DNA of 64,000 bases from Trametes villosa. Taxonomy: Eukaryota; Basidiomycota; Agaricomycetes; Polyporales; Polyporaceae. Positions within the stretch are counted from its first letter, which is position 1. Every line of letters begins with the position of its first letter. Where the stretch lies: contig PUDQ02000132.1 of the NCBI GenBank assembly GCA_002964805.2, forward strand, positions 23,296 through 87,295, written 5' to 3'. Under the pieces are notes generated by a model that was given only the letters and a program-made list of their open reading frames with translations, was not told the DNA's origin and searched no databases. The position numbers and the translations under genes were made by a program. Positions 13,792-56,115 of this stretch are shown one piece after another.

Positions 13792-13799
13792 CAGGAGAG

Positions 13800-14434: not shown

Positions 14435-14807
14435 ATGGACTCCGATACCGACCCAGCACACTCGCCCTCTGGTTGTCCGGCGACCGAGGACGCGCTGCCG
14501 CCTAGGCCTCCCTCCGTTTGCCAGAGCTGCTGGACAGGTCCCGTCGCGGCGTACAGCCAGCTGTTATACCGCGACGCTTTGACTCCGCCGGGTGACAAAG
14601 ACTGTACCAGACAACACTGGTCTTACTCCACTTCACTGAAGAAGCTAAAGAAAGGCGCCGCCACGGGCTGCGTATGGTGCAAGGCCGTCTCCCAGCAGAA
14701 CTTTTCGTGCAGCAGGAAGATGGTAGATTGGGTTTGGGAACGCCCAATCAAGGTCAAACTCGAGCTCTTCTCATTCAAGTTTCTCCGGGACTCGGAGGCG
14801 TCCACCT
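14435..14807 (+). pseudogene. HET-C' exon 1, 5' part (gene interrupted by 24 kb element)
   Basis: ATG at 14,435 gives MDSDTDPAHSPSGCP, nearly the HET-C start, followed by CQSCW and CVWC. The frame is open to 14,807, where the terminal inverted repeat of the large insertion begins. The rest of exon 1 resumes at 38,966. The two parts (373 + 81 bases) total 454, which leaves one base over, exactly the phase needed for the conserved phase-1 intron. The gene therefore has no lesion other than the insertion. Confidence 0.85.
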
Positions 14808-14832
14808 CATCAGCAATCTGCGCAAGTGTCTT
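14808..14832 (+). repeat. Left terminal inverted repeat of the 24 kb element
   Basis: Starts CATCAGCAATCTGCG. The reverse complement of 38,939-38,963 is the same except one base (C versus A at the 11th position). Confidence 0.85.
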
Positions 14833-15200
14833 ACAGGTCTTGGTCTGACCATGATGTCTGGTTAGTGTCTTCCAATAGTCTTTGTCTGATTTTACTGTCT
14901 TGGTCTGTTGAGGGTGGTCTTGGGGACATCAGACACTGTACTTATGAAAATGACATGTGTCTTGCCATCAGAATTTGGTCTTGAGTCAAGCTGTTATCTC
15001 TTACATCAGCATTTTCCGGGGCCTCCTGAATATGTCCTTAGGCCTCCTTGTTTCCTTTCTGGCACTATTTAAGGTCGTAATGCGAATAAGGAGCACAAGG
15101 CAGTGTTTGAGCTCGACCGATCGGATCACTCAGGCGGTCAGAGCGCAATCAGGCCGTAAGGAGTCCGAAGCATAAGGAACTTAAGGGGAGAAAGCCCGCC
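14833..15200. repeat. Left subterminal repeat zone
   Basis: Dense short words GTCTTG, GTCTGA and TGTCTT between 14,833 and 14,990, then 'caggcggtcag' and 'ggccgtaagg' words around 15,130-15,160. The right end has the same two classes of word in mirror order (GTCTTG words at 38,720-38,938; 'cgtaaggcggtcag' in reverse complement near 37,715). Such subterminal arrays are typical transposase-binding zones of large DNA transposons (inference). Confidence 0.55.
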
Positions 15201-15360
15201 AGGCTCGCCACTAGGTGTGCTACAGGCAATATAGCGGTCAGAGATTCATCCCTCGATTCCCAGCTATCGGTGTCAGTGTGCTCAGAGTCATCTATGTGCA
15301 AAGCAACGTGGTTGCCGGCGGCGACAAATCAAATCTGGCACTCCCCTCCGCTCAGCCTCT

Positions 15361-15702
15361 CTACCAGAGAGTCAACGATGAAATGCCCGCCTGAAAAGCT
15401 GCGGACAAGGCGAAATCGTACCGTACCGACATGTAGCGGCAGTCCTTTCGACTTGCTCCCAGGGACGTCAAGCTCGGGACATGGATGACGAAGATGTCCT
15501 CGCCGTTGAAGGACACCGTGACCGTTACCGCCAGCGTCAGCCACAGCTCGTCCTTGAGCGGTGGTGGGCGCATGACCCAGTCGCAATGCCGGCCGTTGGA
15601 TGAGTCCAGTAGCCCGAGCTGTCGACCGTCGAATGGCTCGACCCGCTGCCACGTTTGTTTGTTTGAGGGCAGAGAGCTCTGCGACCCGTCTACCCACGTC
15701 AA
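15361..15702 (-). CDS. Possible coding fragment, unknown
   Basis: Open frame of about 113 codons beginning near TWVDGSQSS, with a hydrophobic beta-rich stretch (DELWLTLAVTVTVSFNG, DIFVIHVPSLTSL). Its composition is more protein-like than neighbouring frames. It ends soon after AAFQAGISSLTLW, and a downstream frame on the same strand (GGHFIVDSLVERLSGGE) could be a continuation after a short intron or frameshift. No family recognised. May be a dying cargo gene. Confidence 0.3.
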   Translation of the reverse strand: MTWVDGSQSSLPSNKQTWQRVEPFDGRQLGLLDSSNGRHCDWVMRPPPLKDELWLTLAVTVTVSFNGEDIFVIHVPSLTSLGASRKDCRYMSVRYDFALSAAFQAGISSLTLW

Positions 15703-17565
15703 CGTCAGGAGTAGCAGTGGTGGCTACTACGGGCGATGGTGGTACGCGCTAGGCTAGCTCGCGCTGCGCGAGCGCATCAGCTACTGCATCGTCAGCGTCA
15801 GCATTGGGCTCGCGGCCCACGAGGAGTCAGACTGGTCGTACTGAGCCGCGAGGCGTGTTGAGCTGAACTTGCTGCGCAGCGTCGGCTGGCTGCGCGCCAG
15901 GATCGAAGCTTGTGTCGGACGCGGCGAAGCTGGCAGTTAACTGTGCCGCCGCCGGGCGAGCGGATGCTGGGGGCTGGAAGCCGCTCATATTGCTAGAGAG
16001 GAGAGGAGAGCCGGTATGCCTGCTGTTCCGAGCACTCTGTGGGTAAGGTAAGTCCGACAGCCGTTGCTGCCCCATTCCAGGGGTGCCCCCACACCCAGAA
16101 TGCGCGCCCGTTGGCGGGTAATCCTCGTAATCGTCCTCTGAGTCCATCTCGAACCCGTCGTGCGCGGGGTAGCCCAAGGGCCCTCCCTGCGCGAAGCCGT
16201 TGCTAAACTGGCCGTTCGCGAACGACGGCCAGACAGCGTGCTCCTCGCTCGCGTACAGACGGCGCACGCTGCGCAAGCCGTTGATCGTGGCCGAGAAGGG
16301 GACAGCGCCGGAGGAGTAGCCGCTCGACTGCGACTCGGAGAGCATTGAGCTGCGCTGCGGCGCAAACAAGCTGTACGCAGGGTCAGCACCCACTTACCGC
16401 CTTCGCGCGCATTGTATCTCTGCGCTGATGATCCGCCTATGTAGGGTTCCTACGGCCCCTCCGCCTCCGCCTGCGGCGCCCGAGTAGCGGCTCTCGCTGC
16501 ACTTCGAGATCTGCTGCGCGGCGCACGCCCATGCGATGCGTCCTCACACGCACTGCTCCGGTCGCTGCCCGCAGCTTGCACGTGGGTTGTGGGCGCACCG
16601 GCAGTGTCCATGGGTGGCGGGCCCTCATGGAGAGTGCGGGTACGGTTGTGGGCACGGCGCGGAGGTCGGATGTCGGACGCGTTGGACGCGTCGGTCGACG
16701 GGACGATGCCTAGTATTGGATAGTCCATACGCGAGGGCGGCAGGTGCGACGGTCCATCCACGAGCGTTGGGATTCGGCATGCCGCAGGTGCACATGAGCG
16801 AACACCTCGAGCACCGCGTCCTCGTTGGATGCGAACCCGGTGCCACACTCGCGGACGGCGGCGGCGGCGTGCAAGCGCTGTTAGAGCACATTCGCGTATC
16901 CGTCGAATTGCTTTGAGGCAAGGAAACCGTCGAGCGTGCCCTGGCTCTCAAGCCCGACTGCGCCGAGCGGGACTCTGCCTTGGGGGACGCAGGGTAACGA
17001 AGTTCTGAAGAGGTGGAGATGCGTGGATACTGACATCTACGGGCGGAATGGGTGGACCGTAACGCGACTGTGCAAAGACACATAACCTACAATCAGCTAG
17101 TCTACGCCTAAGAGACCCGGATTGAAGAGAGGCTTACGCATTCTGTCGCACGGAGGGGAGCCGCACTTCAGATGAACCCGTCCAGAGTTACGACGCGCTC
17201 GCCATGTGCGCCGAGGTGCCCCTTCCGGCAGCTGCTAGCAATAGGCATCATGAGGGCGTGCGGACCACCGCCTGCTGCGGGGGCGCGGCCACAGGAGACA
17301 TCGCTGTCATCGGCATGGAAGAGAAGGCAATGTCGGAGCTATCAAAGGGGATGTTAGTGAAGGGGTTTGTGGATATTTGAGTTGTACTCAGCGATGATGG
17401 CAGGATGTGGGACGGCAAGGTCCGTGACGGTGCTTCGGACACTGGGCGACAATTACGCCGTAACCCTGAGCGGCCAAGGCTCACCACAGGGAATTCCTAG
17501 ACGATCCCGGGCCCGCGTTTGCATCAGATACTACGCTATGGCCACCCGAGATGCAACCGTGAGCG
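15703..17565 (-). other. Possible multi-exon gene remnant, unknown
   Basis: The minus strand has a serine/proline-rich frame from about 16,350 to 15,827 (SSMLSESQSSGYSSG, then DSEDDYEDYPPTGAHSG). A possible 43-base intron sits just upstream (gtaagt...gccgcag, about 16,396-16,354). Further upstream pieces at 16,450-16,920 change frame repeatedly. No start, no family, and no consistent exon chain could be established. It may be a cargo gene truncated when the 17.57 kb element inserted. Confidence 0.25.
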
Positions 17566-19053
17566 ATCATCAGGAAACCCCCCACCAAGCCATTGCAGCC
17601 AGCCAAACTCTATAGTGCATTATAGTCCCCATTGCACTACGTAGTTTCCCCCTGCACAATGTAGAGCAATATTGAGCCCCCCCCCTCTAAAGTCTAACAA
17701 AATCATTATAGAACACTACCTACATACATACCAGGACCGTCCGGACCTCGAGCCATGTTCAGCATGCCAACTGGCGTGCTGTAGATGGTCCGAGAGACAC
17801 GATGAATACGGGCGCATAATTGAAGTAAACAGGCGCCAGCCGCGCTTGTCGCGCCGGAGAAATCCGCGGGCATGGGCCGGGGGACCGAACGGGCGCTTGG
17901 AGATCGCCTATCGCCACGTCAGCCATTTTCGCAGCGCGCGCTCCTTGCCTTTCCTCCTTACTCTATAACGATCTTGCTCCTGACTCTGCTCGGTTTGCTC
18001 CTTGCTCATTCGCGTCCTCCTGGTCATCTGGATCGTCTCTGGGGCCCTTAATAAGCTCAGTATCGGCTCGTATATCAGGTCATCACCGTCCGGCTGGAGT
18101 CTTTCTGCCAGCAAGCACTAGGCTCGGAGCCGGGCAGCCCTCGTTCTGGGTGGACTCCCCCCTCCCCCATCGGCTACAAGAACCTTGGAGAGGTCTAGGA
18201 CTGCACTGGATATGCGGCTCAGGGCTCGCTGCGATGCTCTGGGAGGTTAGCCACCCCGCATAGGTACGTACACCTTGTTTGATGGCTGCCACGCGTGCGT
18301 CCCCTCTGCGGCTTCTCCAGCAGAAGGCGGACAGAAGCTGCGTCGAGCCACGCGGCCTTCGTTACTCGCATCACGACGCGCCGCCACGCACGCGTATGCA
18401 TCCAGCTCTCGAGTCTCCCTCCTGCTCTCTGATGTGTTCGTACACGCGGCTCCCGACAATCGACTGACTTGCGGCCCCCTTGTGCTCTGCTCGGGCTTCT
18501 CAGGTCTTCGGCACTCTTCCCGCTTCTAGCTTGGGCTCTTCTTGTCTCGATGTATCCCGCTTATGGCTCGGCTTCCGGTCTCTTGCTCACTCTGTCCCTT
18601 GTACGCTCGGTCTGTTCTGTGTTGGTGCTTTCGTGTTTCTTGTCGACTGCCATCGCCTCGTTCTCTGTTCTCAGACTGTACTGCCTATCTGGGAAATGCC
18701 CTTGTACCTCTGCCAGTCTCGGGTGCTCGGTATCTCATGTTTCTGCGCTCTGAGTCAGCCTGGCGCTCCTCCCGTCTCGTACCACCGCCAACCTGTTATG
18801 TACTGCATGTATATTTGTTATAGCTGTTAATATAAACCGTTCTTTACCTTGATCCACACGTCCCGAGCATGAATTGCAGGCTGTATTGCGTGAGCAGTAG
18901 GCCTGAATAAGGCGCAATATATAGTGCAATAGTGTGCTATAGAAGTGATGCGCGGTGCTATGTAGTGCTACATAAAGGGGGAGTCGCAATGGTGCAATGG
19001 CGCCTATGTAGACTCCATTGCACCATATTGCAACCGGGGGGTTTCCTGATGAT
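17566..19053. mobile_element. 1.5 kb inverted-repeat DNA element (non-autonomous)
   Basis: Perfect 18-base terminal inverted repeats ATCATCAGGAAACCCCCC at 17,566-17,583 and 19,036-19,053. They are flanked by GCG on both sides (17,563-17,565 and 19,054-19,056), a 3-base target duplication. Near both ends there are related words around 'ccattgca' and 'atagtgca'. No transposase frame lies inside, so it must be mobilised in trans. It is nested in the 24 kb element and lies 22 bases from the LTR element. Confidence 0.7.
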
Positions 19054-19429
19054 GCGAGTTGTTGGCGGCGGATACTGTCGGAAACTGGTGCACTGAGTCG
19101 AGCAGATATCGAGCAGATATCGGGCAGCAAGCAAGCAGACTAGCAAGCAAGTGGGTAGAGCAGTAGATAGCGGTACAAAGAGAGCCTGTAGCTACAGCAC
19201 AGCAGCGAGCTGGCACCCAGGGGAGGACCCCAGACACCGTGGCCCCCAGAACCCCGAGTGAGGGCAGAGGCGCCCCACACTCCGTCCAACACTCCCACTC
19301 GCCGAAAGACCACAACGAGGGGAGTCCACAAATGCGCAAGCAAACAAACAAAAAACGAACCGTGAAGTCCAACGTCCGCACGTGCTCCCACTGACCCTGC
19401 ACAACCTCCCACTGAACTCCAACGGACTC

Positions 19430-20578
19430 CTACGCCTGAATGCGCTTGACGAGGGCGCGACGTTCTTGCGCGGTGCCGACGAAGTTCGGGAGGAGGGCAG
19501 CAGAGAAGGACTCGCCTGAGTCGCTGTCCGAGCCAAGGGCGGCACCAGCCATTGCGTCGCTGAGGTTGTCGTCGCTGGGGAGACCGAGGGATGCATGGAA
19601 GGCCTTCTTGCTGGCACGTCGCGCCCGGGCGAGCTTGTCCCTGATGTCGTCTGGCATGTCGAACATGCAGTGGCGAGCGAGGTGACCACGTCGACCACAG
19701 CGGTGGCAGTCGCGGATGGGATCCCTGGGGTTGAGCCAAGAGAACGACTGGTCATCCGTACCAGAGGACGACTGACCGCCATGATCGGTGTCCGACTCGG
19801 AACGCGCGGGACTAGGGGAATGACGACGCGTCTTCTTCGGCTTCCTGTCCTTCCCCTTCCCCTTCCCCTTCCCGCCAGTGTAGAGTGCGGATGGCGCACC
19901 ACCCGCGCCCTCGGCCTGCTCATCGAGCTTCTCGACGTTCTCATGCTCGGTGAGGAGACTGCGGAGTTCGTCGAGAGTCGGGTCCGAGGTGCGGGTAGTG
20001 AGGAGGTTGCGCACAAGTCGCCACTGGGGGTGGGAGGTGTCGAGGTGCATGATGATGGAGTCGACAACATCGACGGAGGGGGGAGTGTGGCCAAGGGCGG
20101 TGAGGGACTCACTGGCGTGGACGATCGCCTGCACGTAGTCGCCGATAGGCTTCGTGGAGTCGTGCACCGGGTTGTATAGTGCACGCTTGAGCTCAAAGCG
20201 GCGGGAGCGGGTGTCCTTCTCGTAGACCCCCTTCAGGCTCGACCAGATGGTCGCAACGGGGGTGCCCTTCTTGATGTGGGCGGACTTGAGGGTGACGTCC
20301 TTGACCGTGCGCCAGAGGAACAAGAACGCGAGGTTCTCGATGACGTCCCAGGCCTTGATGTCCGCATCGCGGGAGGCAACGGCCGTGTCGGGGGAGGGAC
20401 GGACAGACTCGCCTGTGAAATGGGCCCAGACCCGTTCATCCACCGTGTACATCGACATCTCCACCTCCGTCGAGAACGTCGCCCAGTTGTTGCCATCGAG
20501 CTGGCTGGTAGGGGGGAAGTTGGAGATCGCGTTGGTGACGATGATCTTGACCTTGGAGAGATCGGTAGGGGTCGTCAT
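19430..20578 (-). CDS. Gag-like protein of the LTR element
   Basis: 382 residues from the ATG at 20,578 (MTTPTDLSKVKII); the frame is open upstream to 20,692. The N-terminal half has the Copia gag layout: LDGNNWATFSTEVEM, AWDVIENLAFLFLW, then a region with TIWSSLKGVYEKD and PIGDYVQAIVHASESL. A CCHC zinc knuckle (CHRCGRRGHLARHC) lies near the C-terminus after a basic KGKGKGKDRKPKK stretch. Gag packages element RNA in a cytoplasmic virus-like particle. The frame ends 138 bases before the 3' LTR. Confidence 0.85.
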   Translation of the reverse strand: MTTPTDLSKVKIIVTNAISNFPPTSQLDGNNWATFSTEVEMSMYTVDERVWAHFTGESVRPSPDTAVASRDADIKAWDVIENLAFLFLWRTVKDVTLKSAHIKKGTPVATIWSSLKGVYEKDTRSRRFELKRALYNPVHDSTKPIGDYVQAIVHASESLTALGHTPPSVDVVDSIIMHLDTSHPQWRLVRNLLTTRTSDPTLDELRSLLTEHENVEKLDEQAEGAGGAPSALYTGGKGKGKGKDRKPKKTRRHSPSPARSESDTDHGGQSSSGTDDQSFSWLNPRDPIRDCHRCGRRGHLARHCMFDMPDDIRDKLARARRASKKAFHASLGLPSDDNLSDAMAGAALGSDSDSGESFSAALLPNFVGTAQERRALVKRIQA

Positions 20579-20850
20579 GGTCGATGAGGCAGGGGGGACG
20601 GCGTGAAATGGGGATAGGCGCTGGTAGGTGGTTGTGCTACCAAATATGGTAGTGCAACGCGATGCCGTGCGCCCAAAAAGGAAGTGCAACACAAAGAGTG
20701 GGGGATGAGCTCAGTTAAAGGACTGAGTTTGAGAATGATCAAGGAGTGAAGCACAGTGTTGCTGAAGGGACGTGGAGGAAAGCAAAGCAGTGGAAAAGAG
20801 TGGAAAATGAAGACAGCACCAGTTGTTGAGCTTTGGGTTTAATCCAGCGT

Positions 20851-20866
20851 GGCAGGGCTCATAACC
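20851..20866 (-). promoter_or_regulatory. Primer-binding site, initiator-Met half-tRNA type
   Basis: On the minus strand, directly next to the 5' LTR, the sequence is GGTTATGAGCCCTGCC. Its complement contains GGGCTCATAACC, the anticodon arm of eukaryotic initiator tRNA-Met, so the primer is the cleaved 5' half of that tRNA, as in Drosophila copia and yeast Ty5. The same 16 bases occur at 56,070-56,085. Confidence 0.8.
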
Positions 20867-21087
20867 TGTCGGAAACTGGTGCACTGAGTCGAGCAGATAT
20901 CGAGCAGATATCGGGCAGCAAGCAAGCAGACTAGCAAGCAAGTGGGTAGAGCAGTAGATAGCGGTACAAAGAGAGCCTGTAGCTACAGCACAGCAGCGAG
21001 CTGGCACCCAGGGGAGGACCCCAGACACCGTGGCCCCCAGAACCCCGAGTGAGGGCAGAGGCGCCCCACACTCCGTCCAACAGATAC

Positions 21088-22319
21088 CCCCCATGTCTAT
21101 ATCCTGTGATGTCCAGAAAGCTCTGCGGGTATATCAGACGCAGCGCAGTTAGTCGATGAGCTCGCACATGTGAACGGGGCGACTCACTGTACTGTAAGTG
21201 TTCGCCGGGGAGTGCAAAATACGAGAAGCCTGACATTTTCACTCCTCCTGGGCGAGCCCTGAAGGCCTGACTCACCGCTGGCCCTCTTCTGAAACCGTTC
21301 ATTGAAACAGTCGGGCTACCACATTTAAAGACCGGGCTTTCAACCGTGGTTAATCCGCGGCGAGTGCCAGAAGCTTTCAAGCCGTGTACTTACGATTCCG
21401 ACAGAAAGCGGCTTGTTGTCGAGACCATTGAAACTGAGAGGCGAGCTTAGGGAGTAAGGCGGCCGACGCTACAGAGCAGGAGGTACGCAGCGACGCCATA
21501 GCCAAGTTAGAGAGCGATCAAGGCGTAGCGCATCCGCAGTGGTTCCCCGCAGCCGACAAAAGCATCGCAAGTCATGTGGAATAGGAATGTATCCAGTTTT
21601 GACTCACCTACCGTGGATCAAATGGATGGAATGTCAGAGAGGTACAGCAGTGATGCCAGCGAGAAATTCTGCAATGTACAAACGATGATTCTCACCTCCA
21701 ACTCGAACAGGCGTCGATCATCATAGACCTCTGTGGCTGACTATCTCTGGAATTACGGTAGGACCGTGAGTCTTCTGGTCTGCGCCACGAGAAGAGTCTG
21801 GTGTTCCCTAGGAGCGGTGAAACACTCAATGGTTACCGTGCGTGGCAGGAACCACGATTGGGCTGTAGCCTACGTTGTGCTGCCGCGAGGACCTCGCCTT
21901 TCTCTCAGTAGCACTGCAGTGAACATCAGTACGGTTCTGCCATGCGATTGGGCCGCTGCTAACTGACCAGATGCCATCCTCTGCGGCCGGGGACGCGCCA
22001 CGTAGCATGATGGCGGAAGGAGAACGCGGTAGACGCCAGTGACGGCGGAGACGCACAAGATCCCCTCCGCCTCGGGACCTTGCCTCATCCGATGGAGAGC
22101 GGCTCAACCAAGTCGGGCGGCATTCACATTTGCTTCATGGGTGCATAGTTGAGGCGGGATGCTCGATTTACAGACGGTGGATGTGGGTGCGGAAAGGGTA
22201 CATAGGTATTCTACAAATTCAGCGCGCTCAGATTCCTGTGGTACCGACTCAGACCAGGTACAAGTGAACTGAATATCACGGGCGATGCAGGAAATAGTAC
22301 GTATTGAGCGCAAAGTTAT
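21088..22319. other. Element interior without recognised gene
   Basis: Between the LTR element and the transposase stop codon I see only short frames. It presumably includes the transposase 3' untranslated region. Confidence 0.4.
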
Positions 22320-25300
22320 CTACACGTTGTGATGAGGGGCGGGAACATGGTGGAGTAGCTCGAAGGAGTGGTGGTCAGCGTACTTGTTCACATAGAACGT
22401 GGAGAACTTATCCAGTGCTTCCTCGCTTTTCAGGGTCTCCGATACGTCGCTGCCGAGACTTGACCCAATCAGATGCGCCGCGCGAACGATGTTGTTGAGG
22501 TGTATGACGGAAAGGAGAGGGGTGCGTCCGCGGCCCGGCGGTCGGAGGTAGGAGGGCTCGACGGTCCACATTCCCGTATCTTCGTCAACTTCGTCATGCG
22601 TCCTCCGAAACCAGTGAACCACCGCGCAGGGATAGCGCCGCCGTCTGTATGTGAATGCGAAGAACAGGCGGACGCGAGCCACCTCCATGCCGGAGAGACC
22701 TGGGGCGCCGTTTGCCTTGTTCACGAAGACACAATCGAAGCGCGGGCAGCGTCCCCTCCACGAGGGGTTCGCTCGGATTATCTCCCGGTGCATGCCGCCT
22801 ATCCCGCATGGGTCGCTTGGCGCATAGAATGTCGATGCGGCGGAGTAGTAGGCTGTCAATGGCTCGTCCTCGAAGTGGGGGCATGCGTCGAGAGGCAAGG
22901 ATGCTCCGCTCAAGGCTCCTACCTGGCCGCGATTGAGCTCATGGTAGAGGAAGCGTCGGATGTGTGCGAGAAGGTTGGGTACCGCGAACGCCGTGCTGAG
23001 TTCCTCAACTGTGCTGCCATGAGTCCGTTCTGATTATGCGCCGTCAGATGGCGACCGGGACAGTCTACAGCATCATCATGCTCACGAGGGGTTGTTGCCA
23101 TTGAAGTATACGCCATGACGGTAGGACCCGAGACTGCGCCATCGTCATCAGCAGTCCCAGGGCGCCCCGCTAAGGGGTTCCTCTTCTTCCTGCTTTTCTT
23201 CGCGTGGCGCTTGGCTTCCTCGCGACGTTCCGGGTCTTTTATCGAGTCAATGTCAGCAGCTAGTTTCACGGGTCCTGTATTGTCGTTGCGAGGGGCTCAC
23301 CTAGCATCATGATAGCAGCGTTGAGGCAACTGCCGTGCATCATCCCTCGATCGGTGAAGTCGACTCGAGCAGCCGCCAACTTGTCCAGGCGTTGATTCGT
23401 CATAAGCATCTGTCCAAGTGCTTCGTAGCGGCTTGAGCGGCGCCACGGCTCCTTGACAGCCTTAATATGCTTGGATTCTGTGATAGACGAGCACAGGCCG
23501 TTCGGGGAGCCGAAGTCCCAAATACGATCAACGTAATGGACGCGCGAGTGTTGTCGGGGTAGGGCGAATCCCTCTGAGCGGACCCCGCTGGTGCGGAAGA
23601 ACTCACGGCAATCCGAGAACTGCTGGAGGGCTGCTTCCATCTGCGCGATAGTCTCTTCAGTGTGAGAGTCGCGCCTCACGAGGTAGCAGAACTCTAAGAA
23701 GCTCTTGATCGACTTGACTATGTCAGGAGGGAGAAGGCCGTCGATTGCCGGGAGATAGACCTGTAAAAATTGTCGTGAGGATCGTCAATACCACTAGCCG
23801 ACACGAGAGTAGCCTTTGCAAGTAGTACCTTCATCAACGCCTTCGAATCATCGCCGGTCCACTGTTTGAATCCACGCCCCTCGTGGAAGTGGCGAAGCTT
23901 GGAGAAAGGAGGCACGGTCGCGATGCTTTCCCGGTGCAAGCTATATGAGAACACTTGGACTACATGCGTGCAGAATAACGTACCGCCGGTCAATCTGAGC
24001 TAGAATTTTCGCCGCACCGACATCACCGTGTTCTTGCTTGAGGTATTGCTCGACCCAGGTTACTAGGTGGTCTTTGAACGTTCCCTTAATGAGCTGATGT
24101 AGTATGTCGGGAGCAAGTAGCTCATGTATGTCGGCGCGGGGAAAGTTGTTAGTGAACGGCTGAGGCAAGGGTAGGATGAGTACTGCGTCGCATTGAAGCG
24201 TGCTTCAGAGTCTATTCTAACATACCACAACGTCACCAACAATGCCATACTGCTCCCAGAGCTCGCCGAGCTCAAACTGCTGGACTAGATACTCCGTATG
24301 GTCCCTGCTCCTCGAAAGGCCTCCCCCGTGCTCGATATCGTGCTTCTCCAGCATGCAGCTAAAGGTGCATCAAGAACTGCGATGTAGAACAGTAGATGTA
24401 GCCCGACTTACATTGGGCACCACCCTTGGACGATGCACGCGAGCAGCGCCTGCTCGGGATAATCCGCGATGTACGGTCCGAGCCCGTAGATGACCTTGCG
24501 GAAATGACCGTCCCCGCAACGCACCACGTCCGGCTTCTCCATCCACGGCCGCAGCGGTTGCAGAATACGGCTGAGCGACGTATGGAACAATTGTCGACGA
24601 AACTTGCGGAAACTTGCGTCGTTCGCATCGCGCTTGTTGGCTGAAGAGCCGGTCAATAATCACGGCTGCAAACTTGAGATTGAAAACATATCACTGACTC
24701 TTGGGTATGGCTAGAAAGCCGATCAGGGCTACGGCGTTTCTGTGGGCTCGTCGGACGCCGTTGTGAACGTTCCCGATTGAGCAGTATACGGGGTAATATT
24801 CGTTCTGGCCGGTGGCCACCGAAACCGTGGTCTTATCGCTCCCCAGTATGACGGGAACGAAGGAGGAGTTCTGTGCCGCAGGATCCTCGCTGATGATGTT
24901 CTGTTACACAAATTTTAGCGTGCTCAGCGCGTCTCCCACCGAATGAACACGTACCGCCTGGCGCCAAGCCCATTCGCCGCCCATGAAGTCCTGCAACCTA
25001 CGTTTCGAGTTGTGGTCGAACTCGCGGAAGGGCGCGAAGTCAATCTCGTCTTTGAAATCGGGGTTCTCTATCATACGCCGTACGACGGCGCGAGGGTCCC
25101 GGTAGAAGACGCTGTGTTTGTCGGTCATCCAGGGCGGGGCACCCGAGGCTGGGAGCTCGCCGCTGTACGAGAGCGTGAAACTCTCCCATTTCACGTCGCC
25201 GAGAGGGATGTTGTCGATGGTTTTGTATAGGTCCTCTTGCCCTCGAAAAGGTGGTGAACCGCCATGCTTCAGGAGTGTTGCAGCCCACAGCTCGAGGAGC

Positions 25301-26557
25301 TCGTTGATGTTCCCGGCCGGCATTTGCTCCTTTCTGTACAGGAGATCAGCTAGCTCGAAGGAGACCCTATCCTCGAACGGAGCCCAGTCATCCACACCCT
25401 GTTCCGCAGGAGGCGGCGGAGGCGGAGACCCTGCCGGTAGCGTCTCTCCGTCGGAATTGCAAGGCCTCCCTATGTATGTCAACAGGTAGTTGAGCCTGCG
25501 GCGCGAAGCGGTGTTGTACAAGTATGTCCCACCGTTAATGACAGGGTGCACGTCCCTGCGCCTTGGTTTGCTCCCGCTGGTATGCTGCAGTGAGGGGATA
25601 TCCTCGTTCCGTCTGCGGTGGTCTGATGCTCCCCCGCCTGAGCCTGTGGGCGAAGCAGTGGGCGACTCATAAGCAAGAGGGGATGTTGGGTGCTCGTCGG
25701 ACCCATTGTGCAGCGAGGACGGCGGAGTGGGAGTCCGCAACGGGGCTTCTCCGCGTTGGTGCAGATCGTGTAGAGCTACGCCAAACGGTCAGTCTCGGAG
25801 CATCAAAATGCATACGTGAGGGAACAGACCGGCGGGATTCCCCTTGGCGGCGCTGTCGTACGCTTCGCCTTCTTCCGGCGCACCGTAGTCCAGATCGCCA
25901 GGGTCATAGTAGTAGTCGGGGTCTTCAAAGTCGGTGTCGGTGTCCGAGTCGGAGCTGCTCGAATCCGAGGAGGTGTCCGAGTCGGAGCTGCTTGAATCCG
26001 AGTGAGTGTCGTCGTTGGAGCTGATTTCGGCATGAGCATCGGCGTCGCCACGCGGCTCCATGTCGTCATCTGCGTCAGAGAGATGGTCTGTGTCGCTGTC
26101 GTTCATGTGGGAGTCGATGTCGCCAGATGCGCGAGCCTCGCCTCCGTGGTGAGAAACGCTCCTGTCGATACTCATGCGCTCGTCCCCAGCGTTGTCCGGA
26201 GCGGGGTCGTGTCCAGACTGCTGAATAGAGGGATGTAAGAGTCAGCCCTTCGTAATACCATGACGTTGGTATCGGGCGTGCCGCGGCATAGCATACCTCC
26301 AAGTTCTGACCGCAGTCGGCTGCGGAACCCTCGCCCTCATCGCCCGAGGTCGGGTCAAGCGGTGGAAGATCAGCATCAAACTCGCCGGCGTTGTTCAGAG
26401 GTTCCGAGTCGAGGACAGGGTCCGGAGGTTCTTGGACGGCGTCGTCCAACTCGACGGCGGGCTCCCACCCCGGATGCCAGCGTCGCATATGCTGAGTTAG
26501 GCCCGTCTTGTTCTTCAAATGGCGGTTGCATCCGGGTACCTCGCACCGTAGAGACAT
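22320..26557 (-). CDS. Plavaka-type transposase, multi-exon
   Basis: About ten exons on the minus strand. Exon 1 (26,557-26,297) has a C2H2 finger (CEVPGCNRHLKNKTGLTQHM..H). Exon 2 is acidic/serine-rich. Exon 3 (to about 24,950) carries DWAPFEDRVSFELADLLYRKEQM, LELWAATLLKHGG and APPWMTDKHSVFYRDPRAVVRRM. Then follow FVPVILGSDKTTVSVATGQNEYYP, FRKFRRQLFHTSLSRIL, VIYGLGPYIADYPEQALLAC, FPRADIHELLAPDILHQLIK, FKQWTGDDSKALMKV, GLCSSITESKHIKAVKEPWRRS and a C-terminal domain ending at 22,320. These are hallmarks of the Plavaka group (CACTA-related) of Agaricomycetes. By analogy with CACTA enzymes, D in GSDKT, D in APDILHQ and E in ITESKH are candidate catalytic residues (inference). No stop was found in the exons. 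One junction (about 25.8 kb) needs a GTCTGT donor to keep phase. Confidence 0.8.
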
Positions 26558-30122: not shown

Positions 30123-30129
30123 TATAAAA
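30123..30129 (+). promoter_or_regulatory. TATA box
   Basis: TATAAAA, 67 bases upstream of the ATG at 30,196. A pyrimidine-rich run follows at 30,131-30,141. Its position rules out the earlier in-frame start at 30,112. Confidence 0.6.
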
Positions 30130-30195
30130 TCCTCTCTCTCCAGATCAATCCTCGCTCACACCTTCAAGTTTTCCCCCATCCTCACGCAAAGCAGG

Positions 30196-31756: not shown

Positions 31757-32347
31757 TACCCAAACGGAGTCGCTCTGAAGGTGCCCGCCTCTAACAGCGC
31801 CGGCAGGGCCTTTCCGCTCCCCTGTGAGTATATGCCTCGATGCTGCCGCGGCCCGCACGGCTTTGCTAACGTACTACTCAAGGCTTCCGAAGTATCTTGA
31901 AATGCTGCAGTTAAATCGCCCCTTTCCCTCGTCTTGTCGCCGTCTTTACGTCTTGATGTACATACAAAAACGCTTGATATTCAATCAGTGCTAGGCTCGA
32001 GTTCACGTATTCCGCGCATAATACAGGCAATGTACTTCACTGTCAGCCGGGGTGGTGGAAACTCAAGACATGCATTCATGTGCCAGGAGCAGTTGATGCT
32101 CGTTGTGCGATATACAAGCAAGATAAGGTACTCGATGCTACTTTTGGACCGCCGCCGCCATACCTACGAGACCCAGAAGGGGCACATTTGTCGCCCTCTC
32201 GAGCCTGCCGACGCTCGAGCCCCATCAACTTGAAGCCCTCCCCCTCTGTTGATACCGTCGATTCGAACAGAGTCGTCTGCCGCGAGAAAGCATAGCCGTT
32301 AAACTCAGGCTCTTCAGAACGCGAGGATCAGGATACTTGCTCACCTG
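31757..32347. other. Gap between repeat-protein and F-box-type genes
   Basis: Convergent gene ends. I see nothing that looks coding or structured beyond likely 3' untranslated regions. Confidence 0.4.
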
Positions 32348-34013
32348 CTAGCCTAGCATCACTATCCAGGGTCCGAGGACGACGGCGTAAGAAGGGAGGT
32401 CAGGGAATGCCCGGCAGAGCAGCACCACAATCGCCTGTCTGGTGACGCCGTGCGCGAAGTAGATGCGATGGACTACCAGGCTCTGAAGCTTGCACTGCTG
32501 GATAGTGGGAAGTGTATACCCGATGAGACTTGTGGGGCATTCGACCGCGGGGAGACTAAGATGGATGAGCAAGGGGCAGAGCTGTACAATACGAGGGAGC
32601 AACGCCATGGTGATGCCGCAGGTCCGCGGTCCCGGGGTGAAAGAGAGGTCGAGGGCCTCGAGGAATGGCCAGGCTGCGCAGAGGGCGAGGAGATCCTTGT
32701 CTCCGAACGCGATGAGGAGGTGGGGAAGATTGATGTTCACAGACGTGAGGTTTTCGAGGCCGATGAGCGAGGATACAAAGGTACCGAACGCCTTCGGATG
32801 GGTGTACCACGCGACTCGAAGGGATACAATACTGACGGAGCGGAGGGTTTGCGCGAAGAGTGGAGTGGTCGCCTCGAAACTGGAGAACAGGGTGCAACTC
32901 CCTTGGATGGCGGAGAAGGCGACGTCCGTGAGCTGCTTGAAGGTGGGCGGGGAAGTGCTCTCGACCCAGCGGCCTTCATCTGCGGAAACAGTGAGCAGGC
33001 CTCCGATTTGCAAAGAGCTAAGTCAGGCTTACCGTTCTTGACGAGGAGTTGGACCGGGATGCGATGGAGGTACCGAAAATACGCCGTGCAGCTCGACTGC
33101 TTGTCCTGAAGAGCGCGGCCACGAGAGGCTATTCTGAAGTCGGAAAGCGATGGGCAGAGGAGGGCGGTCGTCGCGAGGAACCGCTCAGTCCAGTGCGAGA
33201 AGGCTATCCCGCCGTTCGTCTGGTCCTGGAAGGTGATTACTCCAATTTGCAGCGACTCAAGCGTGGGGCTGAGCAGGTACAGAAGGGTATCGTTGCCCAC
33301 CGGGCCTTGGTCCCACATAAGTCGTTGCAGACAGCAAAGAAGCGGGGAGCTGTCCGGGATGAGGGAGGAGAAGAAGGGAAGGAGGCCGAAGTTGTCGAAG
33401 AGAGTGCCGCTTAGATCCGCAGACTTGACCAGGCTGGCGTAGTACAAGAAGCGACCGTAGAAGTCGACGCTTTGAGTGACTCGGTTCACCAAGTCCACAA
33501 TCTCGTCGCTTCTGTAGTCGGAAACGCGTTAGAGGCCGTCAGGAAAGAGCTTCGAATGAGGACGTACTTTTCGGAGTGCTTGAGCACCCTGGCCACCTTT
33601 TCCAGGGGACCGATGGCCGGCGCCTTATCGAGGATGTTCATCAAGTGCCCTAAGCCAGGATTGTCGGCGCACTCGCTCCAAAGGATCGGTGCAGCCACCA
33701 GAAAGAACGTCTTGGTCACGCGCAGATAGTTCGTGAGGTCGTGGCGGTCTTTGATGTCGTAGGTGTCGCGGCGGAACTTGCTGAGGATCTGGAAGACGAA
33801 GTCGTCGCAGTTGAGCACGCGGCGCGCCGACGTTTCTTCTTCGCTTGTGAGCGGAGAGTCGAGCGCCATTGGTTTCGACTCGGGGTCGACGATAATAGCC
33901 GGATGCTGGGTGTTGGTAGTAGCAGGCGGAGGCGGCGCGAAGTAGTACACCCGAGCCACAGCGTCGCGTTTAAAACGCGTGATATGGAACATATGCTCTT
34001 CGTATGCAGACAT
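32348..34013 (-). CDS. F-box/leucine-rich-type protein
   Basis: Minus strand. Exon 1 runs from the ATG at 34,013 (or 33,869) to 33,568; exon 2 33,511-33,033; exon 3 32,979-32,348. Introns are 56 and 53 bases and both keep phase. Near the N-terminus, VLNCDDFVFQILSKFRRD followed by LRVTKTFFLVAAPILWSEC fits the degenerate F-box common in basidiomycetes. The remainder is rich in leucine repeats (LSGTLFDNFGLLPFF, TLESLQIGVITF, LENLTSVNINLPHLL, FLEALDLSFTPG, LLIHLSLPAVECP). Such proteins usually recruit targets to SCF ubiquitin ligases (family knowledge; target unknown). The start between the two ATGs is undecided. Intact frame, located in the 24 kb element. Confidence 0.65.
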
Positions 34014-34398
34014 TCTGCCGTTAATAGCTCGCTTGTTAGCGGACGTCCTTTCGCGAATGCAATTGGCTGACCTTGCGAGGCGAGCCACGGATTCTGCGCA
34101 GGGTGAGGATAGATGTTGGCGGGGGATGAACTCGACAGCGAGGGGAAGAGTGCAAGGTAGGGGAGAGAACTTTGACGTGGTGCCACGATGAGCACGCTGC
34201 ACGCCCCCGGGCGATTGGGACTCCTCCTCCTGGGAAAGCCCGTCGATCCGAAAGGATATTGCGTTTCTCTATGAACGTACAAGGATCAAAACAATAAGCG
34301 CCGTGTAGATTTTAGTCCGGCATGCCCGGGGACGGGCGAGAATTTCAACCTCCACCCCGTCGCAGAACCCACCGCCAACTTCCCCTCGACTCTCTACA

Positions 34399-37030
34399 AT
34401 GCGCCGCGTCACTCGCTCCAGCAACTCAAACGCCCACCCCGGGAGGGTGGATGCTCCTCGTGAGCGTCGGTCTAAGGAACAGATGACCGCGGACGAGAAT
34501 GCCAAAGAAGCCGCGAAGGCGGGTAAGGAGAAGGCCAAAAAGAGAAAGGAGGAGGGTGTCGCAGAGATCGAGATCGGCATGAAAGAGAAAGAACAACGCC
34601 TTCGTGAGCTTCGAGTTCTGCATTCAAAACCTGGAAAAGCTTACCTCAATGCGACCTCGACCCGTCCGGAAACCTTGGGGGAGGCAGCGGTGGGTTCTGC
34701 TCCGCGCGCCAAGCGGAAGCAACAGGCGCTCGTCGAGGAGGCGGTCAAGAAACCGTCTAAAGCTCGCAAGAAGTCTCGCGAGGACGACATGCAGGTGTCT
34801 GGGGAAGACGAGCCCCCGACGCCTGCTCCGGTTGCCCAGCCTTCGTCGTCGGACCTCAGCGAGCTTGATGGCGACGCCGTCGAGGACGTCCCCGACGCCG
34901 GAGCGACTGCGCCGGATGACGAGGAAGACGACGGGACGCCGACGCGGCCAAGGAAGAGGAGCAAGAAGGCAGACAAAGTTCCGCTGAGGGCGAATGTGGC
35001 GGCAGCGAAGAAGCGGCTCGCCACCGACGATCCTCTGTCGGTGGCGGAGACAGAGCGTCCCGCCGCAAGCCTTAGCACAGCCACTGCGCGACCGTGAGTG
35101 CCGCCGACTCGCTCACTCGTTCACCCACTCACCTCACCGATCGCTCCCACCGCGACCGTGCCTTGGGAACCGTAGTCGCGTGTCTGCTTGGGCCATGCGT
35201 GCTGCCGACGCCGGCTTGCTCACCCCGACAGCCAACAAGGTTCAGCCTCTCTCTCACGCCGCGCTTCGCACCGCAGCAGTCCCCGCAACGCCTTTCATGC
35301 ACGACCCCTCCGACGGAAAAAGCTCGAAGGGTAAGGATGGTAAGAAGGGAGAAAAGCCCAAGGCTAGACCGAGGGGTACCAAGGCCGGTGAACAAGCGGG
35401 AAAAGCACCCAAAACGGCGCAACCGCGCGACTCCGGCTCCATCAAAGTCAAGCGCGAGCCCGTGAGCGACAGCGGAGAGATGGAGGAAGGAGGCTTCGGC
35501 AAGACCGACGACGAGTCCGCAGAGGCCACTGCCGCGCGGGACAGCCCAGTCAAGAACGGTGTGCGTCTCACGAGCGCGGTATGGGAGGGAAGGTATCTCT
35601 ACTGGCGCCTGCTGACCTCGCTTCACGTTGTACCTCTAGGGCATAGTGAAGACTGAGGAAGTCGACCTTGCCACACCCGGAAAACCCAAGAAGCCGCGCG
35701 GGAAGGCGGGCTCAAAGCCGACAGCCTCAAGGAAGATCTCGAACCCGAAGGGACGGTCTTCTGCCAGCAACGGGACGTCGCGGGATCAGGTACGCCTCAC
35801 TATTTCTCCCCTTCCATCGTTTTTCTCGTCGCCAACTGCATTGTTTGAAGGCGATTGAGTTAGATTCGGACGACGACAAGGCCAGCGCCACCACTGGCAC
35901 CACGAAGGCGCGAACCACGGTGCCCAAGACGTCGGTCAAAAATTCGGACCTTCCAGCCGGCGTTCACGAACACAATTTGTGGAGGAATAGGTTCCTTCCG
36001 ACGTTTCTCAAGGCCGTTGGAGCTTCCAAGGATCCTTGGAACCTGACTGACAAGCAGATCGTCCAGCTGCTCCAGTACTCCTGGGACGCCGTCTACGGCA
36101 ACTCCTCGGAGGCCCTCGCGTCATATATCGTGACGGCGGACGACAGCGTCCATGCCATTGTACGTGCTCATCCGTATATCTGCAATGAATGATACTCATC
36201 CCTCACAGGCTACCCAGCGCATGTACGAGTGGCGCAGCTCGTTCGGGAGCGCCGCAATGCGGAGTTATGAGGCCTTCTTCAATAGTTACCCCGCCGAGTT
36301 TCCCGACAACGAGTCACGCCAGGACTTCTGTACACAGATTTTACAGGGCGGTCGCCTGTTCTACGAGGAACCGGAAGGCACTGGAAAAGAGGTACGTGGC
36401 CATGCGTCGTCTCATTTCCGTCACCGCTTGCGTTAACAGCCCGGGTTGTGTCAGGGGCTCTATCGCTCCCCGTTCGTCCTCGCCGGGATGGTAGCTCACA
36501 TCGACGCCATCCAGAGCGCTGTGAACATCCCCGACCTCTACGTTACCCAGAAGGATGAGTACCCTTACGCCGCAATTGGGCTGTCCGGAGCTGCGGTAAG
36601 TTTCCTTGCTACCCTGGCCGTCTAGCCCGGATGCTCCCGAACTGCCGTTGACCTTCGACTAGGCCCATCGCGCTGCCTTGATCTGGCACCTCAAGAAGGT
36701 CGAGATAGACGAGAAAGGCAATGCGGTGATCATCAAGGTCCTCAACCGCGCCACCGGGAAATGGAGTACCAAGGAGACCGACTTCAGCCACGCGAACTTC
36801 AGCGAGAAGACGCTCCAGTGCATGAAGTCGGCCAAGAGGCTCTCGCCCGCGGACATCGACGAGATCGTCACGGCCGCGTATCGCATGGCGCAGCTCCCGC
36901 CGCCTACTGCCGCCGTTGGAGTCCCCACGGCGCTCGCCGTCCCTTTCGACTTCGACTTCGGTGACCTTACCCAGGTGCGTCACGGGTTTCTTTCGCATTG
37001 AGGCGCGTCTGACTATCATCACAGGACTAA
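34399..37030 (+). CDS. Eight-exon gene of unknown function, 732 residues
   Basis: Exons 34,399-35,093, 35,176-35,578, 35,640-35,789, 35,851-36,159, 36,209-36,391, 36,455-36,595, 36,663-36,974 and 37,025-37,030. All junctions are GT-AG and all phases agree, so the gene is intact. The N-terminal 400 residues are low-complexity and charged: a coiled-coil-like basic stretch (EAAKAGKEKAKKRKEEG), KKPSKARKKSRED, an acidic DDEEDDGTPTRPRKRSKK, and KSSKGKDGKKGEKPK. The C-terminal 300 residues look globular: LWRNRFLPTFLKAVGAS, IVQLLQYSWDAVYG, QRMYEWRSSFGSAAMRSYEAF, DFCTQILQGGRLFYEEP and AHRAALIWHLKKVE. I do not recognise the domain with confidence; similar charged-plus-globular proteins occur near transposons in Agaricomycetes. 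The last exon holds only one codon and the stop. Confidence 0.7.
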
Positions 37031-37470
37031 GTGGGGGCACTGCCGTCCAATATCCGTATGCTCACTGTATTATCTTCCTAACCGACTACACGCTGCATTG
37101 GCTGACCTCGACTTCCTCATTCATGCAGATTGCTCTTGTATCCGAGGAACATACACTCTCGGCGCCGCATATCTTGATCGCCTACGTTCCAGTATTATAT
37201 TCCCGACACCATCCTCCCTGCATCATCCCGTTTGCGCTTCTCGGTATCTCCTATGATTGTTCTTGTCCGATCCCCTCGTATACACGCATACCGCCTATCC
37301 CGTAATCGCCGCTTAGCTGTATACTCCATTACCGCCTTGAACCGCCCTTTCGTCCTGTATGACCCAAGCCACTGTCCGGCCTCACACCGCCCTTGTATAT
37401 CGACCCCCTCCTTATCAATTGCTGATTTCTCTGTATTCTCTTCTTACGTCCTTGGGCCGTCTGATTCCCT
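37031..37470. other. 3' flank of the eight-exon gene
   Basis: No gene seen; pyrimidine-rich and leading into the minisatellite. Confidence 0.3.
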
Positions 37471-37607
37471 GTTCGACTGTCCGCCCCCCTGTTCGACTGT
37501 CCGCCCCCCTGTTCGACTGTCCGCCCCCCTGTTCGACTGTCCGCCCCCCTGTTCGACTGTCCGCCCCCCTGTTCGACTGTCCGCCCCCCTGTTCGACTGT
37601 CCGCCCC
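37471..37607. repeat. 20-base minisatellite, seven copies
   Basis: Unit GTTCGACTGTCCGCCCCCCT repeated head to tail, starting at 37,471, 37,491, 37,511, 37,531, 37,551, 37,571 and 37,591. The last copy is altered (CCGCCCCACG). Confidence 0.95.
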
Positions 37608-38520
37608 ACGCCGCCTGACAGCCTTGTGAATTGACTCAGTCCTGATCGTCTTACCGAGACCTTGTCAGCCAGCATTCGAGCCGTTTGGCCTTAACTTCTA
37701 GGAGAGCTGACCGCCTTACGACCAATGCCCTGATCACCTTACAACGTTCTTATAACTTCCTTGGAGCACCCGGGAGACAGCAGCCCACAATCACAACTCC
37801 TCCAAGGCGAAACAGCAGTAAGAAGACAAGGAAATAAGAGCCTGGTAAGCGCGCAGTACAGGCTTTGACAATAAATAAGAGCAGAGACTGCCTTACAGCC
37901 TTGTGATACCCTTACGGCCTTACAAAAGGGGATAAGGAAGAATAAGGAGACCCGGGAAAATGCTGATGTACAAGCAAGCCTTATACTTTCTGAGTAAGCA
38001 CGTGTCTTCCCAGTAAGAAGAGTGTCTTAACACCAGACAGGGCCTGAAAAGACCAAGGACAGCAATTATGCCTGATACTTCAAAGATGTATCTGCTTATC
38101 ATCATGTTTATATTATCTAGCCAATAGTGAATAAGCAGCATGTCCCAGCCTGGGATGTAATATTACATGTAACTGATGTGAGATTTGAATGAGTACTAAT
38201 ATCTAATGACTCCTGCTCTATGAAAACATGTCAATCATTTTTAAACTTCTTGGTGCATACAGTTTCCCTAGTGCTATAGTGATTCAAGTGCATGCCTTTA
38301 TTGGCTTACATTCAGTTCATACTTGAGTCAATATTCCTTAAACTGGGAGAGTGTTAGGGCCCTAAGAACTGAGCTGATGGTATTATATGACATAGGGAAG
38401 GTATTAGAACACAGAATAAACACATCTATTGGTAGGCTGTTGACCATCTGACACTAGCATATGCATGAAAAGAGAAGTATTAGGGAGCATAATATATTAC
38501 CCCACACCAGCTACCCTAGC
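37608..38520. other. AT-rich right arm of the element
   Basis: Noticeably more AT-rich than the HET array; no gene. It carries words such as 'ccttacgacc' and 'gccttac' that mirror 'ggccgtaagg' at the left end of the element. Confidence 0.4.
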
Positions 38521-38700
38521 AAGGTGCTATGGTGCAGTGGCAAACCGTGCCCGGAAGAGACATGCTGAGTCCGTGAGGTCAGTGGTTCAACTCCCGGAAA
38601 TGGCAAATTGTGGGTGTCCCTATGAATCCTTCCTGAAGGATGGGAGATAGGATGATTGCATAGAACAGTGTCTAAATATGAGATAAAATTTTTTATTGCT
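38521..38700 (+). mobile_element. tRNA-like SINE candidate
   Basis: Has RNA polymerase III internal promoter boxes: an A-box-like TGGTGCAGTGG at 38,530-38,540 and a B-box-like GGTTCAACTCC at 38,584-38,594, which fits GWTCRANNC. A T-run follows (TTTTTT at about 38,688). The spacing (about 54 bases) suits a tRNA with a long variable arm, but no full cloverleaf forms by eye. It is therefore a tRNA-derived element, not a working tRNA gene. Confidence 0.45.
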
Positions 38701-38719
38701 TCTATTGTGCAAAATTGAT

Positions 38720-38938
38720 ACCCCTCTTGGTCTTGTACAGGTGTCTGATTGAGGTCTTGCATCTGTCTTAAGAAGAGCTTGGTCAAGACACCCTGTTCTT
38801 GCAGCAGACCTGTCAGACCAAATGGTCTTCTGTAAGACCAAGTGTCCCTGTCAAGAACTGGGGCCTAACTTGCACAAGACCAGATGTCTTGGTCTGATAA
38901 TATGTCTTGAGTGTCTTATGCTCTTCATCAAGACACTC
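38720..38938. repeat. Right subterminal repeat zone of the 24 kb element
   Basis: Many copies of GTCTTG/CAAGAC, AAGACA and GTCTGA on both strands, matching the left zone at 14,833-14,990. Confidence 0.6.
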
Positions 38939-38963
38939 AAGACACTTGCGCATATTGCTGATG
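38939..38963 (-). repeat. Right terminal inverted repeat of the 24 kb element
   Basis: Reads AAGACACTTGCGCATATTGC then TGATG; inverse of 14,808-14,832 with one mismatch. Followed by CT, the putative target duplication. Confidence 0.85.
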
Positions 38964-38965
38964 CT

Positions 38966-40657
38966 CGCCATGGGATGGAGTCCAAGTACTCGATACAACG
39001 GTCTTCAGCGCCAAGCTGTTTAGGCGGTATCTATACACCGCCGCAGGTGTGTTTGTTTCACTCATCTGATCGCCGGGCATGTCGAACTGACTTTCCCCTT
39101 TTTTGTGAAGATGATCCAGCCGCGCCCTACGTCCCAGCGCGGGGTCCTGTTCTAGGTTTGCGGTCGCCACGCGCGTTCTCCCTCGCAAGGGCACGCATCA
39201 ACGAGTGCACGCATAACCACGCGGTCTGCTCTGAGATCTCGCCATTCCGGGATTCGCGCCTTCCGACACGCGTCGTCGACTGCACCGACCCCGACCATCC
39301 CCATCTGGCGTCAACCGCCGGGAAGCTCGGCATGTATGTCACACTCAGCTATGTATGGGGCGAAGCACAACCGCACCAAACCACGAGAGCCAATATCGCT
39401 GCCTACTCAACTGGGATCGACGCCATTTGCCTCCCTCAAACCATCTGCGACGCAATTTACTGCACGCACGCGCTCGGATTCCAGTACCTCTGGGTGGACA
39501 GCCTCTGCATCGTACAAGACTCGGACGAGGACAAGCTGCACGAGCTCGGACACATGCATCTCGTGTATCGGTACGCATTCGTGACGATCGACGCCGCCAG
39601 TGCGGAGCGGGTTCGTGACGGCTTCCTCCAGGAGCGGCCGGACCCGCCTTACACCACTCTCCCGTTTATATGCCCGCCAGGTCCGGAGGAACAGCGACCC
39701 ATCGGAACCGTGCACCTCTCCACGGACCTCAAAAACATGCGCCCGGCCGAGCCCACCACTGGCACACGGGGCTGGTGTCTGCAGGAATCCCTGTTGTCCC
39801 CGAGGTTGCTCATCTTCATGCAGGGAACTGTTCAGTTCCGGTGCCAAACCTCCTCAACGCACGTCCTCTGCGCGTTCCTCTTTCCCTCCTGCTCCCCGCT
39901 TGAGGATCGGTGGCTACCCCCCGCAGTTTTGTATCCGGACCCGCCTCCCGCAGAGCACAACTCGGACACATATCGCGAGCTGCACAGCGCGTGGTGGGGG
40001 ATCGTCGAGGACTACACCCGGCGTGCTCTCGGGGAGCCATCGGACAAGCTCGTCGCCTGCGGCGCGATCGCGGCGGTGTTGTCCCGCGGGCTGCGCTCGG
40101 ACTATCTCGCGGGCTTGTGGCGCGGGCCTACACTTCTCCTGGACCTGCTCTGGATGAACGCCTCTATCGGTGCCTCTTTACTCCGCCCGAAAACCTTTCG
40201 TGCACCATCGTGGTCGTGGGCCGCTGTCGATGGGCAGGTTACGATGCGGCAAATCTCGGAACCCACCGCCGTTGCTGAAGTGCTGGACTGCCAAGTCGAA
40301 CTCAAGGATCAGAAGCTTCCGTTTGGCCAGGTAGCGAGCGGATTCCTCGTCCTGTGTGCGGCGTTGGTACCGTGCACACCGCCGCTGTTCGGCGCCCTGA
40401 AACTCGACACCAGGTTGGATGAACCTGCTGCTCGAAGCGGCCGTACGTGGCTTGTCCCCATCTTGTCGTTCGTTCTTACGTCTTCAGAACAGACAGCCTT
40501 TACTGTGACTGGCCTTGTCGTCATGCTCGTCGGACAGAACAAACCAGGATCTCATAATGGACACGAAAAGGTCTACAGGCGGATCGGGGTGTTTACCGAC
40601 TACTTCTCAAGGAATGACTGGCGGCGGATGCCCCTCGTCAGGATCACACTGGTATGA
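38966..40657 (+). pseudogene. HET-C' exon 1 end, intron and exon 2 (gene interrupted)
   Basis: Continues C' after the insertion. 38,966-39,046 is the end of exon 1 (reads PWDGVQVL, ending YLYTAAG). The intron is 39,047-39,110, almost the HET-C intron. Exon 2 (39,111-40,657) begins DPAAPYVPARGPVLG and contains YVTLSYVWGEAQPHQTT, QYLWVDSLCIVQDSDEDK, GWCLQESLLSPR, DYLAGLW, PSWSWAAVDG and VYRRIGVF. Joined to 14,435-14,807 it would encode about 666 residues without any other lesion. Transcription of the 5' and 3' parts separately is possible, but neither part alone has a complete HET core with its N-terminal motifs. Confidence 0.85.
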
Positions 40658-56085: not shown

Positions 56086-56115
56086 TTCCAACAATAGGCA
56101 TCGCAACATCAGAAC

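Follow-up and report, generated by a model that had tools for sequence, protein, structure and literature searches.

A HET-domain gene of Trametes villosa interrupted in exon 1 by a short PlavakaB-type element that carries a TET+ transposon and, within this, an LTR element

This study focused on a 64,000-nucleotide stretch of the Trametes villosa genome (C129:23296-87295, hereafter the window), and related sequences were sought across the whole assembly of 46.7 Mb and 140 contigs. The window lies in an array of HET-domain genes with repeated neighbouring modules, and further HET-domain frames of the same array occur on both strands, at 2840-5134, 6761-8371, 46154-47587 and 52346-53965 of the window and in C129:4000-20000. 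One paralogue, D (C129:7285-8107, reverse strand), looks truncated. An open copia-type gag-pol frame of 1,438 amino acids (RVT_2, integrase and gag) is found at 56098-60414. One HET gene, here called C', is present in two widely separated pieces, and the features of this region, with two paralogues used for comparison, are as follows (window positions unless a contig is named).

14435-14807, forward: HET gene C' exon 1, left part (124 codons and one base), an open frame matching paralogues A, B and D
14806-14807, forward: CT, left-hand copy of the outer element's target duplication, within the gene
14808-15003, forward: outer non-autonomous element, left part, with terminal inverted repeat (TIR) CATCAGCAATCTGCGCAAGTGTCTT; 92-97% identical to the left ends of six short copies
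15002-15003, forward: TA, left-hand copy of the inner element's target duplication
15004-37968, reverse (for the transposase and TET-like genes): inner TET+ PlavakaB-type transposon, 22,965 bp, with TIR CATCAGCATTTTCC and a TA duplication; two-ended relatives on C3 and C127
19076-21082, reverse: LTR element with identical LTRs of 216 bp (19076-19291 and 20867-21082) and target duplication GATAC
19433-20710, reverse: copia-type gag open reading frame of the LTR element (PF14223, E 3e-14)
22320-26557, reverse: Plavaka transposase gene, modelled with 10 exons, at least one further C-terminal intron lying outside the model; spliced frame open for 1,033 residues
27084-28925, reverse: TET/JBP-like 2-oxoglutarate/Fe dioxygenase gene, with start and introns placed by eye
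37467-37607, no strand assigned: 20-bp tandem array of 7.1 copies, close to the inner element's right end
37969-38963, forward: outer element, right part with TIR, starting with the right-hand TA copy; the equivalent sequence is joined to the left part in 6/6 siblings
38964-38965, forward: CT, right-hand copy of the outer element's target duplication
38966-39046, forward: HET gene C' exon 1, right part
39047-39110, forward: HET gene C' intron, 64 nt, corresponding in position to the introns of paralogues A and B (66 and 69 nt)
39111-40657, forward: HET gene C' exon 2, containing the complete HET domain (PF06985)
Window, from about 6050: paralogue A, intact exon 1, same contig
C129:17485-18064 and 17177-17424, reverse: paralogue B, intact exon 1, same contig

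When 14435-14807, 38966-39046 and 39111-40657 were joined, the product was a frame of 666 codons and a terminal stop, without internal stops, reading ..EAST|SPWDG.. at the joint. A preliminary description of this DNA had proposed exact ends for the insert, a restored frame of about 666 codons and no other lesion, and each of these points was confirmed: the left exon stops at 14807, the insert spans 14808-38963, the gene resumes at 38966, and no second lesion was seen in rejoined C'. The HET domain was recognised by profile search in exon 2 (PF06985, E 4.1e-25, residues 124-274 of translated 38966-40657), and the rejoined protein is 62.5% and 61.9% identical to paralogues A and B, respectively, along residues 1-666. 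Exon 1 is unbroken in A and B and in the N-terminal part of D, and 71 of the 120 homologues listed (from 615 matches among public proteins) align across the joint as one protein, their alignments starting no later than residue 90 and reaching at least residue 165. Given the unbroken paralogues and these spanning homologues, the two halves are one gene; the preliminary description had considered that they might be separate genes in relatives, and in relatives there is one gene. Among the matches listed, the best named homologues come from Trametes and Lenzites, the best of them from Trametes versicolor (46% identity over 94% of the query).

The gene is broken after 14807 by 24,156 bases (14808-38963) with ends CATCAGCA...TGCTGATG and a duplicated CT. 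These ends form an inverted repeat of 35 nt, 86% complementary, which was the sole inverted pair of at least 30 nt reported in 13500-41000 (seed 14). Both ends of the insert (14808-15005 and up to 38963) match the same six places in the genome, which measure 1.17-1.51 kb end to end, and in 6/6 of these siblings the match to 14808-15005 passes straight into the match to 37969 onward, so that the equivalent of 14808-15003 is followed immediately by that of 37971 onward. With 15004-37968 and one TA removed, the window copy aligned to the six siblings over 1,189 bases with no gap at the joint and 82-94% identity, giving an outer element (14808-15003 plus 37969-38963) of about 1.19 kb. Two of the siblings (C61:27149-28657 and C3:3002836-3004290) also contain additional DNA of about 0.3 kb, located elsewhere than at the joint.

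Two-base duplications flank all seven outer copies with both ends, a count that excludes two partial matches (on C32 and C102): CT in the window, where the preliminary reading of a 2-base CT duplication proved correct (14806-14807 and 38964-38965), and CT, CA, CA, CT, CA and AG in the others. The chance of finding such duplications in 7/7 copies is about 4e-9, taking 1/16 for each and assuming independence. With up to one mismatch tolerated, the genome contains 17 instances of the end motif, including the two in the window, and the reversed control gave 0; outside the window it forms six pairs, all short, and three ends are unpaired. The outer element has no transposase gene of its own, and its ends, 2-bp duplications and copies elsewhere (7/7 with both ends) are those of a non-autonomous PlavakaB-type element. 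A search of a plasmid collection with the outer left end returned no match, as expected for a fungus. A further outer-type end at C10:546021, alignable over 35-40 bases only, has Plavaka transposase matches about 1.2 kb away, at C10:547224-548024, and C10:546021-548024 may possibly represent an autonomous partner of the short elements.

A second element is enclosed within the outer one. Its ends are CATCAGCATTTTCC..GGAAAATGCTGATG, with TA on either side, and the genome contains 11 copies of the 14-base end, the two in the window included (reversed control, 0). Relatives with both ends were found at C3:2090853-2114495 and C127:5621-26362, both containing DNA matches to the transposase and TET-like regions. 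Target duplications of 2 bp were present in 3/3 of these two-ended elements, TA in the window, TT on C3 and AT on C127, a count from which elements on C17, C60, C102 and C113 and a repeated end at C127:37806 were left out. That repeated end shares an identical 25-base flank with the end at C127:5621, 32 kb away and near the end of a 38 kb contig, possibly through assembly redundancy or duplication. PlavakaB has been defined by CATCA..TGATG ends and duplications of 2 or 3 bp (Kojima 2025, PMC12730594), and the inner element has both, its ends following this pattern and its TA duplication and those of its relatives (TT, AT) being of 2 bp. Judged from ends, duplications and transposase domain, it is best classed as PlavakaB-type. 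Near its right end, the tandem array at 37467-37607 consists of about seven perfect 20-bp units.

The spliced transposase model, obtained by a search over splice sites and checked for an open frame only, matched PF18759 within its first 928 residues over the full profile (447.2 bits, positions 1-325 of 325), and its C-terminal end was deduced from the open frame 22323-23033. Scans of further open frames in the inner element gave no Pfam domain, apart from a weak C2H2 match that belongs to the transposase. The second gene gave only a weak match to PF12851 (18.5 bits, below the cut-off of 34.9). A structural model, built on an alignment of 38 rows (the window frame and 37 of the 120 proteins listed), reached a pLDDT of 85.1 and a pTM of 0.80, and its best solved matches were the fungal TET enzyme CcTet (E 9.4e-08, TMq 0.48) and then NgTET1 (E 3.3e-05), both with moderate TM-scores (TMq only 0.46-0.49 and rmsd 6-9 to CcTet). 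H102, D104, H155 and R166, presumably the iron and 2-oxoglutarate ligands, are invariant in 38/38 rows. The predicted dioxygenase thus combines a modelled TET/JBP fold with the conserved residues. The gene model requires GC-donor introns (two by eye), and residues 31-46, a low-confidence stretch, correspond to a presumed intron that the modelled frame still contains.

The third element, of 2.0 kb, lies within the inner transposon and is of copia type, having LTRs that begin with TG and end with CA, a 5-bp duplication (GATAC on both sides) and a copia gag. A full-length match, 99% identical, is present at C45:124029-126036. The gag frame of 426 amino acids, the only frame scanned, fills most of the 1,575-bp internal part and leaves no room for pol, so the element is regarded as a non-autonomous derivative.

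The insert is, then, made up of three nested elements, and the structure shows that a HET-domain gene within an array of HET paralogues has been inactivated by a 1.19 kb non-autonomous PlavakaB-type element in exon 1, with CT duplicated. Since the start and upstream side of C' lie on the left piece and the entire HET domain on the right, a full-length HET protein should be impossible from this copy. Nested insertion is very probably the overall explanation of the disrupted gene: the short element would have entered HET exon 1, duplicating CT; a 22,965-bp, autonomous-looking TET+ PlavakaB-type transposon would have inserted within it, duplicating TA; and the TET+ transposon would have received a gag-only copia-type LTR element of 2.0 kb. 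Because the three layers have exact ends, three junctions can be tested by PCR or read mapping.

Nesting alone gives no order of events relative to the HET insertion, and the inner transposon could have inserted into a short element at another site, from which the resulting 24 kb composite would have moved as a unit into the HET gene, possibly by means of its own Plavaka transposase. This is unlikely, even though the outer TIRs are intact, both element types begin CATCAGCA and make 2-bp duplications, and the inner element would supply a transposase; no second copy of the composite was found, all other outer copies with both ends being short, and the inner and outer TIRs diverge after their first 8 bases. 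Six long matches to the transposase region in the genome are 72-75% identical, and at this level no close or recent sibling of the inner element was found in the assembly. With the best long matches only this similar, recent mobility of the inner element is unsupported.

Whether the right half of the gene still works was also considered. A transcript starting in the outer element might give a HET protein altered at its 5' end and with a complete HET domain, which lies wholly in exon 2; with the intron retained, a frame is open from 38753, in the transposon, through the whole domain to 40657. This seems improbable, as such a frame may be open by chance, and the protein would lack the first 124 residues, which paralogues A and B both have. 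The stretch that carries the exon 2 frame into the end of the outer transposon is 38753-39112.

The age of the HET insertion was approached through the condition of the gene. Pairwise dN/dS was 0.49 for C' against A, 0.52 for C' against B and 0.48 for A against B, values that do not isolate the C' branch but suggest that, over most of its history, C' evolved under the same kind of constraint as its relatives. For a neutral HET gene of this length, 68.8 nonsense changes would be expected per unit of divergence; C' has none, which limits the divergence to at most about 0.044 substitutions per site, a figure that falls to about 0.011 under an assumed rate of 0.1 frameshifting indel per substitution. 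The terminal branch of the outer copy, 0.040, corresponds to about 2.75 nonsense changes in a neutral HET gene, which means that either most of the divergence of the outer copy predates the insertion or the gene was lucky. As this branch is near or above these bounds, much of that divergence probably predates the insertion. The preliminary view of the insertion as young agrees with the lack of a second lesion and the paralogue-like dN/dS, for which reasons it is probably fairly young, although its age is not precise.

No second haplotype or empty allele, in the sense of a near-identical copy of the locus, was found in the single assembly searched, by a method that skips very common words and scores only the best candidates, so that absence is not proven. 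Apart from self-matches, the left part of the HET gene and the flanks 8400-14000 and 41000-46900 had no long match above 85% identity in the assembly; matches of 89-94% were short, at 51-316 bases. The frame is predicted to be restored only if everything between the outer ends is excised precisely and a single CT stays behind, and the expected joint of an empty allele is ..CCACCTCGCC... If other strains carry such an allele, they would provide a natural pair of knock-out and intact alleles for the function of a basidiomycete HET-domain gene, and the main use of the disrupted locus is as a clean, testable candidate polymorphism.

The HET-domain family includes some genes for self/non-self recognition. 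In Podospora anserina, 5 of 125 HET-domain genes have a role in allorecognition, according to a review (PMC10197012). It can be imagined that the nested transposon acts as a reversible switch, with precise excision, possibly by a resident PlavakaB transposase and with the TET-like enzyme lifting methylation, restoring a HET gene in some nuclei, so that on and off recognition alleles segregate; this is considered highly improbable. In Marasmius oreades, insertions and excisions of hAT families have been reported, along with a Plavaka-related deletion that did not appear excision-like (PMC9674265). In the accessible portions of the open-licence literature on HET genes and transposons, no description of a Plavaka element in a HET gene was found.

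The simplest reading of the locus, and that of the preliminary description, was the insertion of one 24 kb transposon in a single event, since one outer TIR pair with a CT duplication encloses all 24,156 bases. It did not survive the comparison with the six siblings of 1.17-1.51 kb, which are gapless through the internal joint, unbroken exactly where the window copy has a second TIR pair and a TA duplication, and the inner ends match independent elements of 20.7 and 23.6 kb on C127 and C3; the single-transposon model was rejected as extremely improbable. Non-autonomous elements often arise by internal deletion, and this common origin might suggest that the short elements are derived from a 24 kb parent, yet the breakpoint would then coincide with the complete TIRs and TA duplication of another element type, and the siblings have a single dinucleotide at that site (TA in 5/6, TG on C61), leaving this derivation almost no likelihood. 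That the two HET halves, which do stand as separate open frames in the window, are separate genes is practically inconceivable and was rejected, in view of the one-piece exon 1 of paralogues A and B and of the N-terminal part of D, and of the 71 of 120 listed homologues that align through the joint.

Three nested elements in one gene remain the preferred explanation, and each layer can be compared with a known system. HET-domain genes of polypores (Trametes, Lenzites, Pilatotrama) encode PF06985 proteins of similar length to C', but unlike them this copy is interrupted. The outer element, like short non-autonomous CACTA/Plavaka-type elements in general, has TIRs, 2-bp target duplications and several short copies, and is distinguished by its specific TIR, TGCGCAAGTGTCTT. 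The LTR element resembles other gag-only copia-type elements in its TG..CA LTRs, 5-bp duplication and copia-type gag, with nothing unusual beyond its small size.

For the inner element the comparison is with the TET+ families of Kojima 2025 (PMC12730594), according to which every TET+ Plavaka is a PlavakaB. TET+ Plavaka elements were reconstructed there from Agaricus bisporus and Gymnopus confluens, two species of Agaricales, while in Polyporales only TET+ Kyakuja was characterised; an association of Plavaka with TET had earlier been implied in Trametes versicolor and Fomitopsis pinicola, and no TET+ Plavaka family was found in these (PMC12730594). A Plavaka domain is already present in a protein of Trametes sanguinea (P0153) that aligns with the TET-like query. 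With this protein and the association earlier implied in T. versicolor, TET+ Plavaka in polypores is new mainly in the form of whole, bounded elements. The present genome holds at least three predicted TET+ PlavakaB-type elements (in the window, on C3 and on C127), which would extend full-length elements of this kind to a Trametes genome, beyond the two Agaricales species of origin. The TET-like enzyme of TET+ elements has been proposed to counter host methylation (Kojima 2025, PMC12730594), and by analogy the predicted enzyme of the inner element probably counters host DNA methylation of the transposon. The inner element is like the TET+ PlavakaB described by Kojima 2025 in its CATCA..TGATG ends, duplications of 2-3 bp, Plavaka transposase and TET/JBP-like dioxygenase, and differs from the reconstructed elements in its polypore host, its length of 22,965 bp and the LTR insertion it carries.
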